A stretch of 64,000 nt of DNA from Alloalcanivorax xenomutans. GTDB taxonomy: Bacteria > Pseudomonadota > Gammaproteobacteria > Pseudomonadales > Alcanivoracaceae. The position numbers and the translations under genes are program-made. Below the pieces are notes generated by a model that saw only the letters and a list, made by a program, of their open reading frames with translations, searched no databases and had not been told where the DNA came from. The DNA lies in contig NZ_OBMO01000010.1 in NCBI RefSeq assembly GCF_900217905.1, positions 1 to 64,000 of the forward strand, read 5' to 3'. Positions 22,208-27,527 of the stretch are shown here, one piece after another. How positions within the stretch are numbered: the stretch's first letter is position 1; the number at the start of each line of letters is the position of its first letter.

Positions 22208-23504
22208 GGCCACCCCCAACCCCCGTCTGGTGGCGGTACGCGCCCTCAATCGTGTGCTGCCCGGCAGTGGCGATGGCGCCAGTCTGCGCGAAGTGCTGCG
22301 CGCCCAGGCCCTGGACGGCGCCGCCGGCGGCCTGATGCGCGACCTCTGCTTTGGTGTCTGCCGCTACCTGCGCCCGCTCAATCACTGGCTCAATCAACAA
22401 CTGAGCAAGCCGCTCAAACCCAGTGCCCAACCGGTGCGTCTGGCGCTCCTGTGCGGCCTTTACGAACTGTGGTTCAGCGACCGCGCCGATCATGCGGTGG
22501 TCAATGCCTATCCGGACTTATGCCGCAAATTGAAAGCGGGCTGGGCCAGCGGCCTGGCCAACGCGGTGTTGCGCAAGGCCAGCCGTATTGACGCCGCCAC
22601 CGCCTTCGCCGACTACCCCGACGCGGTGCGCTGGTCGCTGCCGGACTGGCTCTGGCAACAGTGGCAAAGCGACTGGCCGGATCAGGCCGCCGCCATGGCC
22701 GAGGCCAGTCTGACGCCGCCACCGCTGACCTTGCGGGTGAATCAGCGACACCACCACCGCGACCATTGGCTGACACAATTCGGCGACGAAGCCCGCGCCG
22801 GCGCCCTCTCTCCCTGGGCGCTGTATCTGTCGCCGCCCCGCCCGGTCACCGCCCTGCCCGGTTTCGCCGAGGGCGAACTGACGGTGCAGGATGAAGCGGC
22901 ACAACTGCCGGTGACCCTGATGGCGGTACCGGACGGCGCCCGCATACTCGACGCCTGCGCCGCGCCCGGCGGCAAGACCGGGCAGTTGGCCGAAGCCTTT
23001 CCCGGCGCGCGGCTGGTGGCTCTGGACGTTTCCGAGCCGCGCCTGCGTCAGGTCCGTGAGGCGCTCAAGCGTCTCGGCGCCGAGGCCACCGTGCTCCGGG
23101 GTGACGCCGCCGAACCGCAAAGCTGGTGGGACGGTGAGCCGTTTGACACCATTCTGCTGGACGCCCCCTGCTCGGCTACCGGCATCCTGCGCCGTCAACC
23201 GGATGTGAAATGGCACCGCCGCCGCCAGGACCTGCCGGCACTGGTGGATTTACAAGCGCGCATGCTGGATGCACTATGGCCGCTTCTGCGCCCCGGGGGT
23301 ACGCTGGTGTACGCCACCTGCTCGGTGCTGCGCGCCGAAAACGATCAGCAAATCAGTGCGTTCCTCGAGCGCACCGAAGACGCCACCGAGGACACGCCGG
23401 GCATTGGCGATCCGTCACCGGCGTCGCGGGGCTGGCAATTGCTGCCGCGGGATCAGGGGCCGGACGGTTTTTATCTGGCCCGCCTGCGCAAAACCATGGG
23501 GTGA
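22200..23504 (+). CDS. rsmB: 16S rRNA m5C967 methyltransferase
   Basis: A 434-residue RNA methyltransferase. The N-terminal NusB-like RNA-binding domain (about 1-140) is followed by the SAM-binding domain with motif [18 protein letters not shown], motif [19 protein letters not shown] (substrate-assisting Cys in PCS) and motif [11 protein letters not shown] (catalytic Cys). A TTG start at 22200 is used, overlapping the fmt stop; this is typical for the translationally coupled fmt-rsmB pair. It is followed 13 bases later by trkA. Confidence 0.94.
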
Positions 23505-23517
23505 TCGGACCGCGATC

Positions 23518-24894
23518 ATGAAGATCATTATTCTGGGTGCCGGCCAGGTGGGCGGCACGTTGGCGGAGAACCTCGCCGGCGAACGCAACGATATCATCGT
23601 CATTGATACCGACGGCGAGCGCCTGCGGGAACTGGGGGACCGCCTCGACATCGGCACGGTGCAGGGCATGGGCTGCTACCCCAGCGTGCTCAAGGACGCC
23701 GGCGCCGAGGACGCCGACATGCTGATCGCGGTGACCAACTCCGACGAGGTCAACATGGTCGCCTGCCAGGTGGCGTACAGCCTGTTCCGCACCCCCACCA
23801 AGATCGCCCGTATCCGCACCGCCCATTACACCAGCCGCGCCGACAAGCTGTTTAACGAAAGCGCCATTCCCATCGACGTGATCATCAGCCCCGAGCAGGT
23901 GGTCACCGACTATATCAAGCGTCTGATCGAACATCCCGGTGCTCTGCAAGTGGTGAATTTCGCCGGCGGCCGGGTGCAACTGGTGGCGGTGCGCGCCTAT
24001 TACGGCGGCCCACTGGTGGGTAACGAGCTGCGTGAACTGCGCAAGCACATGCCCAATGTGGATACCCGGGTGGCGGCGATTTTCCGCCGCAACCGGCCCA
24101 TCATTCCGGAAGGCAACACGGTCATCGAGGCGGACGACGAAGTGTTCTTCATCGCCGCCAAGAACGACATCCGCGCGGTAATGAGCGAGCTGCGCCGGCT
24201 GGAGCACAACTACAAGCGCGTGCTCATCGCCGGCGGCGGCAATATCGGCTATCGCCTGGCGAAAAGCATCCAGCACCGCTACAACGTCAAAGTCATCGAG
24301 CGCTCCCCGCAACGGGCCGACTGGCTCGGCGAAAAACTGGAGCACACCGTGGTGCTGCAGGGCCTCTCCACCGATCGCGACGAATTGCTCAAGGCCAACA
24401 TCGAGAACACCGATGTGTTCTGCGCTCTGACCAACGACGACGAGGCCAACATCATGGCCTCGCTGCTGGCCAAACGCCTGGGCGCGCGCAAGGTGATGAC
24501 GCTGATCGCCAACCCCGCCTACGTGGACCTGGTACAGGGTCATGACATCGACATCGCCATCTCACCGCAGCAATCCACCATCGGCAGCCTGCTCACCCAT
24601 GTACGCCGTGGTGACGTGGTCAACGTCTATTCGCTGCGCCGCGGCGCCGCCGAGGCCATCGAGGCGATTGCTCACGGTGACGCCAAATCCTCCAAGGTGG
24701 TGGGTCGCGCCATCGAGGACATCGACTTGCCGGAAGGCACCACCATCGGCGCCGTGGTACGCGGTGAACGGGTGCTGATCGCCCATGATGACGTGGTGAT
24801 CGAACCGAACGATCACGTGATCCTGTTCCTGATCGACCGGCGCCGCATCCGCGATGTGGAGAAGCTGTTCCAGGTCGGGTTCACGTTCTTCTGA
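23518..24894 (+). CDS. trkA: Trk potassium-uptake regulatory subunit TrkA
   Basis: A 458-residue peripheral membrane protein with two RCK units, each an NAD-binding Rossmann fold plus a TrkA-C domain. The nucleotide sites are [13 protein letters not shown] near residue 5 and [13 protein letters not shown] near 237. Acidic residues that end the second strand (VIDTD, VIERS) bind the ribose. It gates TrkH according to NAD(H)/ATP state. The ATG at 23518 matches family starts; upstream in-frame codons overlap rsmB. The length equals E. coli TrkA (458). Confidence 0.96.
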
Positions 24895-24944
24895 TGAAGG
24901 CCGTTGCGTTGATGATGACGGAGAGAGCAAAACACAGGGCAGCG

Positions 24945-24976
24945 GGCGCCCCCTCTTTCATTGACGAGGGGGCGCC
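24945..24976 (+). promoter_or_regulatory. Perfect 11-bp hairpin covering the trkH ribosome-binding site
   Basis: GGCGCCCCCTC (24945-24955) and GAGGGGGCGCC (24966-24976) are exact reverse complements around a 10-base loop. The right arm holds the only Shine-Dalgarno sequence (GAGG) and ends on the base directly before the trkH ATG. In mRNA the site would be fully paired, so translation should need the hairpin to be opened by temperature, a protein, an antisense RNA or ribosomes. No T run follows, so it is not an intrinsic terminator. Confidence 0.7.
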
Positions 24977-26428
24977 ATGCATTTCGCGCTGATCTCCAAA
25001 GTGCTCGGCCTGCTGTTGGTGGTGTTCAGTTTCACCATGATGCCACCGGTGGCGGTGTCCTACTTCTATCAGGACGGCAGCGAAGGGCCGTTCCTGGCCT
25101 CCTTCGTGATCTCGTTGCTGCTCGGCCTGGTGCTGTGGCTGCCGTTCTTCCGTCATCGCGCCGAACTGCAGACCCGTGACGGCTTCCTGGTGGTGACGCT
25201 GTTCTGGTCGGTACTGGGCGTGATTGGCGGCCTGCCGTTTTTGATTTCCGCCGACACTCCGGTGGGTTTCACCGACGCGGTGTTTGAATCCGTGTCCGGC
25301 CTGACCACCACCGGCGCCTCGGTGCTTTCCGGTCTGGATACGTTGCCAAAATCGATTCTCTATTACCGCCAGCAACTGCAGTGGTTTGGCGGCATGGGCG
25401 TTATCGTGCTGGCGGTGGCGATCCTGCCCATGTTGGGCATCGGGGGCATGCAGCTGTACAAAGCGGAGATTCCGGGGCCGATGAAGGACGCCAAGCTGAC
25501 CCCGCGCATCGCCGAAACCGCCAAGGCGCTGTGGTACCTGTACCTGTTCATTACCGTGGCATGCGCTTCGGCCTACTGGCTCGCCGGTATGACCCTGTTC
25601 GACGCCATCACCCACAGCTTCAGCACCGTGGCCACCGGCGGTTTCTCCACCCATGATCAGTCCATGGCCTATTGGGATAGTGCCGCCATCGACTGGATCA
25701 CCACCGTCTTCATTATCATCGGCGGAACCAACTTCGCCCTCCATTTCGCCGCCATTCGCGGCCTCTCGCCACTGACTTTCGTGCGTGATCCAGAGTTCCG
25801 GTTCTACATCGGCATGGTGTTCCTCTACATTTTGCTGGTGACCCTGGGTCTGCTGGCCTTCAACGTGTTCCAGAGCGCCGATGAAACCCTGCGTCACGCC
25901 GCTTTCCAGGTAGCCTCGTTCAGCACCGGTACCGGCTACACCAGCACCAACGCCGCCGCCTGGCCGGGTTTCGTGCCCTTTTTGCTGGTGTTCACCAGTT
26001 TCCTCGGCGCCAGCGCCGGTTCCACCGGTGGCGGCATGAAGAGCGTGCGCGGGGCTCTGGTGTTCCACCACAGTATTCGCGAACTGCGGCGGCTGATTTA
26101 CCCCAATGGCGCCTTTGCCCTGCGCTTCGGCCGCCATACGGTAAATGATCGGGTGCTGCAGGCGGTGTGGGGCTTTGTCGGTGTTTACATCACCATCGCG
26201 GTGGTCTTCACCCTGCTGTTCACCGTCACCGGCCTGGACCTGACCACAGCGGTCAGTTGTGTTGCCGCCAGTCTGAACAACCTGGGTGTGGGCATTGGCG
26301 GCGTGGCCAGCGGCTTCGCCGATATTTCCCCCGCCGCCAAGTGGATGATGACGCTGCTGATGCTGCTCGGCCGTCTGGAGATCTTTACCTTGCTGGTGCT
26401 GTTCACGCCGCTGTTCTGGAAGCAGTGA
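24977..26428 (+). CDS. trkH: Trk potassium-uptake membrane subunit TrkH
   Basis: A 483-residue inner-membrane potassium channel subunit, same length as E. coli TrkH. The start MHFALISKVLGLL aligns with E. coli MHFRAITRIVGLL, so the ATG at 24977 is secure. The four pore loops are visible: LTTTGASVLSGL, TVATGGFSTHD, FSTGTGYTSTN and ASLNNLGVG; SAGSTGGGMKS is the conserved intramembrane loop. It lies 82 bases after trkA. A hairpin masks its ribosome-binding site, which suggests that expression is set at translation. Confidence 0.95.
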   Translation: MHFALISKVLGLLLVVFSFTMMPPVAVSYFYQDGSEGPFLASFVISLLLGLVLWLPFFRHRAELQTRDGFLVVTLFWSVLGVIGGLPFLISADTPVGFTDAVFESVSGLTTTGASVLSGLDTLPKSILYYRQQLQWFGGMGVIVLAVAILPMLGIGGMQLYKAEIPGPMKDAKLTPRIAETAKALWYLYLFITVACASAYWLAGMTLFDAITHSFSTVATGGFSTHDQSMAYWDSAAIDWITTVFIIIGGTNFALHFAAIRGLSPLTFVRDPEFRFYIGMVFLYILLVTLGLLAFNVFQSADETLRHAAFQVASFSTGTGYTSTNAAAWPGFVPFLLVFTSFLGASAGSTGGGMKSVRGALVFHHSIRELRRLIYPNGAFALRFGRHTVNDRVLQAVWGFVGVYITIAVVFTLLFTVTGLDLTTAVSCVAASLNNLGVGIGGVASGFADISPAAKWMMTLLMLLGRLEIFTLLVLFTPLFWKQ

Positions 26429-26492
26429 TCGTGATTGGAACCACAGCGGCTTCGTAGCCCGGTTTGTGGAAAGGCGTGGCGCCAACCGCGAA

Positions 26493-27527
26493 TCATTGGC
26501 CCTGCGGAATCTCCAACCGGTACGTTTCAATGGCATTTTCCCGGAACAATGCCGCTTTCTCCGCCTCGGAAAAACCGGCGGCGTACCGTTTGAAGGCGTT
26601 CCACAACACCGCGTAGGAACAGGACACCTGGTCCACCGGGAAGTTACTTTCGAACATCGCCCTTTCCACACCGAAGGCGGACAGGCAGACATCCAGATAA
26701 GGGCGCCAGAGCTCCACCAGAGCCTCCGAGGAGGGCGGTAACGGCTGACCATCCAGGCCGAAACCGCAGCTGTGCATGCCCAGACCACCCAGTTTGATCC
26801 GTACATTGGCGCAGCGCGCCAGCGATTCGATCGCCATGCGCCATTCCGGGAACAGCGCGTCACGACGCCCGGCGTAAGGCCCGACACCGAGCACGCCGCC
26901 GACGTGATCCAGCACGATGACCGTGTCGGGGAACGCCCGCGCCAGATTCTCCAGTTCCGGCAACTGGTGGAAGTAGGTCCAGCAATCGAAGCTCAGTCCC
27001 AGCGGCGCCAGACAGGCGAACCCTTCGCGGAAATTCGGATCCAGCAGCAGCTTCTCCGGTGGAATCCGGGTGGTGGTGCGTACCGTCGGGTCTGGATCCC
27101 AGACGCTGGACTGGCGAATGCCGCGGAAACGGCCGCCGCCTTCCTTCAGGTGACCTTCCAGCACCCGATTCACCGAAGTGCCCAGGCGCAAATCGGCGTG
27201 ACCGACGATGCCAGTGCAGACGCGGCCGCCGGTGGCCTCCGCCACACTCCGGGCAAAACGGGTCTCGCCCAGCGGCCGCATCGGCTCCGGACCGGTGTCA
27301 CGGTACTGTTCCAGGCATTCCACGAAGACAGTGCCAATGATGCGGTGGCCGGCGTTCAAATCAGTTTCGATATCCGCTTGCAGATAGGTGGCGCGCGGCG
27401 GCCCCCACAGATGATGATGCGGGTCGACGATGGCCAGATCCGGCTCCAGCACCGGCTCCTGATGTCGTGCCAGCCAGTCCCGATCCGGACCGGGTAGCAC
27501 CGGTTTTTGTGACGTTGTTGTTGTCAT
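26493..27527 (-). CDS. Amidohydrolase-2 family metal-dependent hydrolase
   Basis: A 344-residue TIM-barrel hydrolase of the amidohydrolase_2 group. The metal-binding HxH sits in IVDPHHHLWG near residue 35, another ligand segment is VIVLDHVGGVLG, and the C-terminal part has AMFESNFPVD, where an Asp or equivalent often completes the site. Relatives act on lactones, decarboxylate aromatic acids or hydrolyse dicarboxylates; I cannot choose among them. The ATG at 27527 has AGGAG 5 bases upstream, better than the TTG one codon earlier. It is convergent with trkH and has no clear pathway partner. Confidence 0.75.
   Translation of the reverse strand: MTTTTSQKPVLPGPDRDWLARHQEPVLEPDLAIVDPHHHLWGPPRATYLQADIETDLNAGHRIIGTVFVECLEQYRDTGPEPMRPLGETRFARSVAEATGGRVCTGIVGHADLRLGTSVNRVLEGHLKEGGGRFRGIRQSSVWDPDPTVRTTTRIPPEKLLLDPNFREGFACLAPLGLSFDCWTYFHQLPELENLARAFPDTVIVLDHVGGVLGVGPYAGRRDALFPEWRMAIESLARCANVRIKLGGLGMHSCGFGLDGQPLPPSSEALVELWRPYLDVCLSAFGVERAMFESNFPVDQVSCSYAVLWNAFKRYAAGFSEAEKAALFRENAIETYRLEIPQGQ

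Follow-up and report, generated by a model that had tools for sequence, protein, structure and literature searches.

A reading frame that may couple trkH to trkA across a start-site hairpin in Alloalcanivorax xenomutans

The trkA-trkH junction and its hairpin

The window analysed here, a stretch of 64,000 nucleotides from contig C34 of the A. xenomutans genome (G000), carries the genes for two subunits of a Trk potassium transporter, both on the plus strand. The cytosolic subunit is encoded by trkA (23518-24894; Pfam TrkA_N, 2e-52, and TrkA_C, 4.2e-25), which ends in a TGA at 24892-24894; the tail of its product, FQVGFTFF, was found in nearly all genomes of the family that were read. The membrane subunit is encoded by trkH (24977-26428; Pfam TrkH, E = 3.1e-91), which begins with an ATG at 24977-24979. 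TrkH is 99% identical to its closest named relatives, from Alcanivorax sp. 24 and A. balearicus, and full-length matches in relatives share its start, in agreement with the start codon assigned in a preliminary description of this sequence. The gap of 82 nt between the two genes given in that description was also confirmed. No sigma-70-like promoter was called within 23400-26600. A second TrkH-family protein of the same genome is encoded on another contig (G000:C4:134505-135737; Pfam E = 1.8e-53).

A 32-nt hairpin begins 50 nt past the trkA stop and directly adjoins the trkH ATG. Its left arm (24945-24955, GGCGCCCCCTC) and right arm (24966-24976, GAGGGGGCGCC) are perfectly complementary over 11 bp and enclose a loop of 10 nt (24956-24965, TTTCATTGAC). 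This is the structure previously described, except that 10 of the 11 pairs are G-C and not nine. The right arm contains the Shine-Dalgarno-like stretch GAGG (24966-24969), 7 nt ahead of the trkH ATG; as had been claimed, it is the only such stretch at a usable spacing. The isolated hairpin has a predicted free energy of -25.1 kcal/mol at 37 °C, and the region from -40 to +3 of trkH one of -26.5 kcal/mol, with the Shine-Dalgarno region predicted to be 18% unpaired, a predicted inhibitory structure over the downstream ribosome-binding site. The fold of the entire trkH leader has a z of -2.2. On these predictions the ribosome-binding site of trkH appears to be closed by the hairpin, and free ribosomes should initiate trkH poorly.

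Within 464 kb sampled from the genome, 19 perfect hairpins were found (stem of at least 11 bp, loop of 3-15 nt), 18 of them intergenic. The trkH hairpin was the only one of the 19 to abut a start codon, as judged by a crude gene caller, used for this sample and for the loci of the relative G002 discussed below, whose starts are approximate. Among 380 sampled gene starts, trkH had the strongest fold between -40 and +3; in pairing of the Shine-Dalgarno region it ranked 26th, 25 other starts being equally or more paired. No second copy of the 32-nt hairpin was present in the 4.35-Mb genome at up to three mismatches, and a dispersed repeat within its own genome was thereby ruled out for the trkH hairpin. 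A looser form, CCCCCTC..GAGGGGG, occurs at one further place in the genome.

Conservation of a reading frame across the junction

The junction is also spanned by an open reading frame of 32 codons on the plus strand (24894-24992), referred to here as the bridge. Its ATG (24894-24896) overlaps the trkA stop in the sequence TGATG (24892-24896). The bridge reads across the hairpin in a different frame from that of trkH and comes to its end at base 16 of that gene, its TGA (24990-24992) starting 13 nt past the A of the trkH ATG. The bridge peptide had no match in Pfam. No Shine-Dalgarno sequence was seen ahead of the bridge start, which may make re-initiation at this ATG weak. When the spacer of this genome was shuffled with its TGATG context retained, 29% of the shuffles also yielded a bridge; taken alone, the frame of this genome is unremarkable, and the case rests on the family.

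The junction was readable in 45 of the 46 family genomes searched (no match was obtained in G021, and separate pieces supplied the reading for G008 and G030). Spacers measured 1-25 nt in 28 of these genomes and 82-157 nt in the remaining 17, with none in between. By eye, spacers were assigned to the classes I, II, hp, and other. Besides that of A. xenomutans, the long spacers comprise nine of type I, which consist of more or less palindromic ACACGCA-like heptamers, six of type II, which consist of GTCGGAC heptamers, and one of a further kind (G027). In the 44 other family genomes the hairpin arms were never found ahead of trkH, and no hairpin of at least 7 bp had its end 3 nt or less from the start of that gene. 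The preliminary description had named arms not conserved in relatives as evidence that would refute its proposal, and on conservation that is the outcome here.

All 17 long spacers, that of A. xenomutans included, hold an open reading frame in the same frame relative to trkH. Measured from the trkA stop, its start lies at -1, +7, or +8 nt and is an ATG except in two type II genomes, which have GTG, and in G018; the TGATG overlap with the trkA stop is found in A. xenomutans and three others (G006, G019, and G027). Relative to the trkH start, the bridge stops at +16 in 11 genomes, where the stop is formed across Leu-Ile codons of trkH, and at -2 in six, where the sequence reads TAA-TC-ATG or TAA-CC-ATG. 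Distances from the start of the frame to trkH take eight values (83, 98, 104, 107, 110, 116, 146, and 149), and all eight are 2 mod 3. Interior stops were absent from the bridge frame and numbered 15 and 16 in the other two frames, which were interrupted in 8 and 16 of the 17 genomes, respectively.

Alignment of the six type II spacers requires just one gap, of 3 nt, and the five of equal length differ from one another at 24 to 49 of 147 positions. Most differences between spacers are non-synonymous, and their spread over the codon positions is about even, indicating that the frame or its translation has been kept and the peptide has not; no conservation of the bridge peptide was seen among the relatives. 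Covariation within the relatives' palindromes was also slight, with a kept double change in 2 of 39 and 2 of 22 predicted consensus pairs and an unfavourable covariation term in both sets, and some of the relatives' spacers fold no better than shuffles (z of 0.04 in G013 and 1.07 in G018). From these comparisons we infer that the selected feature would be the open frame, and neither this hairpin nor the peptide.

The history of the spacers was traced on a tree of trkH with 41 rows, from which G008, G030, G041, and G044 were left out. The distinction between long and short spacers requires 6 changes on this tree (shuffled mean 13.2; none of 500 shuffles as low), and the five spacer classes require 13 (shuffled mean 15.7; 5 of 200 shuffles reached so low a number). 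Taken alone, type I requires 8 changes (8.2 when shuffled) and type II requires 6 (5.7 when shuffled). Spacer length is thus clustered on the tree while spacer type is scrambled, and since the 17 long-spacer genomes are related in this way, the number of independent origins is lower than 17. The sister genome of A. xenomutans, G001, carries a type I spacer, which implies that the sequence turns over while the open frame is kept or regained.

Background rates of bridging were estimated in several ways. Under a tight rule, which was chosen after the trk data were seen, bridges were present in 2 of 66 sampled spacers that were co-directional and 75-165 nt long; under a loose rule the count was 9 of 66. 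For co-directional spacers of 40-200 nt the loose rule gave 16 of 118, trkH included. Shuffled spacers produced a tight bridge in 1-8% of cases for TAG-type junctions and in 16-40% for TGATG-type junctions. Repeats of ACACGCA-like heptamers are stop-free in all frames by composition, so part of the openness of type I spacers is cheap. When the frames were simulated under substitution, the probability that all would stay open was 0.0012 for type II, a value that is too low, the starting consensus itself not being open; the corresponding values for two type I sets were 0.14 and 0.35. This simulation is weak and is not relied on.

Neither the repeats nor the hairpins bring a bridge along as a rule. 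In G002, where the type I motif has 81 matches, the first 30 gave loci (L152-L181) at 18 distinct places, of which one was trk and four were not co-directional; a loose-rule bridge was present at one of the other 13, and the 12 unbridged places show that the repeat does not ordinarily carry a bridge with it. Five other perfect hairpins lie in co-directional spacers of the A. xenomutans genome. One is accompanied by a GTG-started bridge under the loose rule and four are not, so hairpins do not generally imply bridges. Perfect hairpins elsewhere in this genome include one of 27 bp with an 8-nt loop (G000:C34:136709-136770), in a co-directional spacer of 109 nt with a GTG-started loose-rule bridging frame, and two GC-rich hairpins of 12 bp (G000:C34:158414-158440 and G000:C4:119192-119221). 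The latter two lie 2-3 nt past a stop and 20-25 nt ahead of the next start in the same direction, with neither a T tract nor a bridge, and are possible ribosome-termination structures.

Outside the family, 36 of 59 rows had a recognisable trkA upstream of trkH. The spacer was at most 50 nt in 33 of the 36; the three long spacers comprised two without a bridge (L077, 166 nt; L080, 115 nt) and one with a loose GTG bridge only (L087, 121 nt). None was tightly bridged, and the bridging rule is therefore not universal. In two Neiella loci (L083 and L086), trkH follows a different upstream gene after a 93-nt spacer containing a frame of 29 codons, which starts on the stop of the upstream gene and ends 4 nt before trkH; this is possibly an independent bridge.

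The type I motif is present in 25 of the 46 family genomes and the type II motif in 19, highly dispersed in some; both heptamer motifs are absent from the window. Exact matches to a type I 13-mer numbered 178 in G012, 81 in G002, and 5 in A. xenomutans, with none in 21 of the 46 genomes. Where it was read, the type I repeat is mostly intergenic, with two inverted arms of CACGC-based heptamers flanking a variable core, and certain copies are long pure heptamer arrays (G002:C1:1561675-1561750). The type II GTCGGAC motif is dispersed as well, with 50 exact matches in G006, 55 in G034, and others in G035; there were no exact matches in A. xenomutans. No description of either type was seen among the listed papers on Alcanivorax repeats.

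Probable coupling of trkH to trkA and its alternatives

The reading that we favour, and consider probable, is that trkA and trkH are translationally coupled by way of the bridge. The anatomy of the junction, its predicted stability, and the conservation of the frame among relatives are the established parts on which this reading builds. The proposed order of events is as follows: ribosomes finishing trkA at the TGA (24892-24894) would re-initiate on the overlapping ATG (24894-24896), translate the 32 codons across the hairpin, and terminate at the TGA within trkH (24990-24992). Their passage would strip the right arm, with its Shine-Dalgarno sequence and start region, from the hairpin, and would leave a terminating ribosome beside the trkH start. 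Translation of trkH would then be begun by this ribosome stepping back or by a fresh 30S subunit on the opened site. To ribosomes not coming from trkA, the hairpin would keep the trkH site shut. If the bridge is translated and opens the hairpin in this manner, the output of trkH would track the translation of trkA, and joint synthesis of the two proteins is sensible given that both are parts of one transporter.

Published work on re-initiation bears on this proposal from both sides. In E. coli, the accessible part of one study (PMC10666635) reports that a gap of 38 nt lowered re-initiation by 80-90% in two gene pairs and abolished it in a third; a spacer of 82 nt combined with a closed Shine-Dalgarno sequence should thus uncouple and weaken trkH, and a bridge would be needed. 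Ribosomes on an upstream frame can free a closed start site, according to the available text of a review (PMC12548453). Counting against the coupling reading, the excerpted results of Chemla et al. indicate that structure just past a stop codon lowers re-initiation; at the trk junction 50 nt separate the trkA stop from the hairpin. The preliminary description had held that the hairpin should strongly block initiation and might switch trkH separately from trkA. The block survives as a prediction that the ribosome-binding site is shut, but ribosomes from trkA probably pry the hairpin open; separate control is contradicted by a frame that overlaps the trkA stop and runs into trkH, with such a frame in all 17 long-spacer genomes.

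Alternatively, the bridge frame could owe its openness solely to a need for ribosomes on the message, which would block Rho termination in a long spacer, with the hairpin incidental and trkH starting by itself. This would account for an open frame without a conserved peptide, and Rho loads on untranslated RNA (PMC12548453, in the portion available). We nonetheless judge it unlikely: the frames end at exact positions, +16 or -2 relative to trkH, the other spacers examined were mostly unbridged (bridges in 1 of 13 and in 2 of 66), and free initiation at trkH is itself predicted to be unlikely with the Shine-Dalgarno sequence inside an 11-bp stem.

It is rather improbable that the hairpin is a functionless, species-specific sequence, a recent chance arrival at a junction that gathers palindromes, tolerated because the frame stayed open. 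Such an origin fits the restriction of the arms to one of the family genomes read, the little covariation in the relatives' palindromes, and the spacer itself, for which no homologue was found in 12 other genomes of the genus beyond short matches at chance level (E of at least 0.16). A chance arrival, however, would have produced the strongest of 380 start-site structures and the only perfect hairpin of at least 11 bp to touch a start codon in the 464 kb sampled. The hairpin should affect the initiation of trkH even if its origin was neutral.

A cis-acting switch controlling trkH independently of trkA, be it a riboswitch, a thermometer, or a protein-binding hairpin, is hardly credible. A strong structure sequesters the Shine-Dalgarno sequence, as in such a switch, but the arms are not conserved, the bridge passes through the hairpin, and a search of 24700-25200 against Rfam (E of at most 1) gave no match on it. 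The search returned just two snoRNA matches, both far below threshold and off the hairpin; one of the two covers the tail of trkA together with the beginning of the spacer. At 90 °C the hairpin is still predicted to be closed (-7.0 kcal/mol, arm 4.5% unpaired); thermal switching is unlikely for this reason, melting being predicted far above growth temperature. The riboswitch or thermometer considered in the preliminary description is therefore disfavoured, and no such hairpin was seen in the listed literature on trkH, riboswitches, potassium, and untranslated regions. Equally hard to credit is a transcript-end or processing element, either a terminator or a shield of the trkA message from 3' exonucleases: most perfect hairpins sampled (18 of 19) lie between genes, several with the A/T runs typical of terminators, but this one abuts a start codon and does not lie closely behind a stop, has no T tract after it on either strand, and drew no plus-strand terminator-like call (the sole call nearby was a separate minus-strand 6-bp stem at 24952-24936).

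Analogues and implications

In the tap-repA system of plasmid R1, the Shine-Dalgarno sequence of the downstream gene is hidden in a stem, across which a leader frame is translated. That system differs from trk in being a plasmid replication-control circuit with an antisense RNA and not an operon junction.

By analogy, the nearest functional counterpart of the trk bridge is mgtQ of Salmonella, and the nearest evolutionary counterparts are the mycobacterial interspersed repetitive units (MIRUs). The mgtC-mgtQ-mgtB operon, as presented in the available part of PMC8092293, is likewise an ion-transporter operon with a short frame in a long spacer. In it a stem-loop hides the ribosome-binding site of the transporter gene that follows, and the short frame bears on its opening, an arrangement that the trk junction fits in its anatomy. 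According to the same text, mgtQ has 8 codons, a strong Shine-Dalgarno sequence of its own, and a position 51 nt past the upstream stop, and it works through alternative stem-loops and ribosome-destabilising acidic residues; the trk bridge, in contrast, has 32 codons, starts on the upstream stop, crosses the hairpin, and overlaps the downstream gene.

MIRUs are short repeats, with an internal frame thought to keep the gene at the insertion site coupled (accessible portions of PMC12548453 and PMC4213456). MIRU frames couple by a spacing of -4 nt (PMC12548453, same portion), whereas trk bridges end at +16 or -2. A further difference is that a single Alcanivoracaceae junction holds two palindromic repeat types, one unique hairpin, and one further kind of spacer; the type I and type II motifs of the relatives are dispersed in some genomes, whereas the trkH hairpin is not dispersed in its own. 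The overlap of the bridge start with the trkA stop resembles the TGATG and ATGA overlaps of termination-reinitiation (available parts of PMC10666635 and PMC6728339), but the trk unit is a non-conserved mini-frame between two genes that would act as a relay and not as a direct overlap. Our literature searches found no paper joining trkH, trkA, and translational coupling, and the main text of a paper on small RNAs of A. dieselolei (PMC9788540) mentions neither trk nor potassium. The principles at work in the proposed coupling are ordinary; the new part is likely the relay between two subunit genes with a hairpin as its gate.

More tentatively, different palindromes may have repeatedly replaced one another at the trkA-trkH junction of the Alcanivoracaceae, with only those versions surviving that were translatable in a frame ending at the trkH start. 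Relay mini-frames would then be a general means by which operons absorb mobile or expanding DNA with the coupling of their subunits preserved. For the annotation of such sites a caution follows: a frame crossing a start-site hairpin should be looked for before a riboswitch is called. If the coupling reading is true, a hairpin that looks like a switch would be a one-way gate that opens to ribosome traffic arriving from trkA. With this family one could then test which features of operon spacers selection keeps, namely an unbroken path for ribosomes and not sequence, structure, or peptide.
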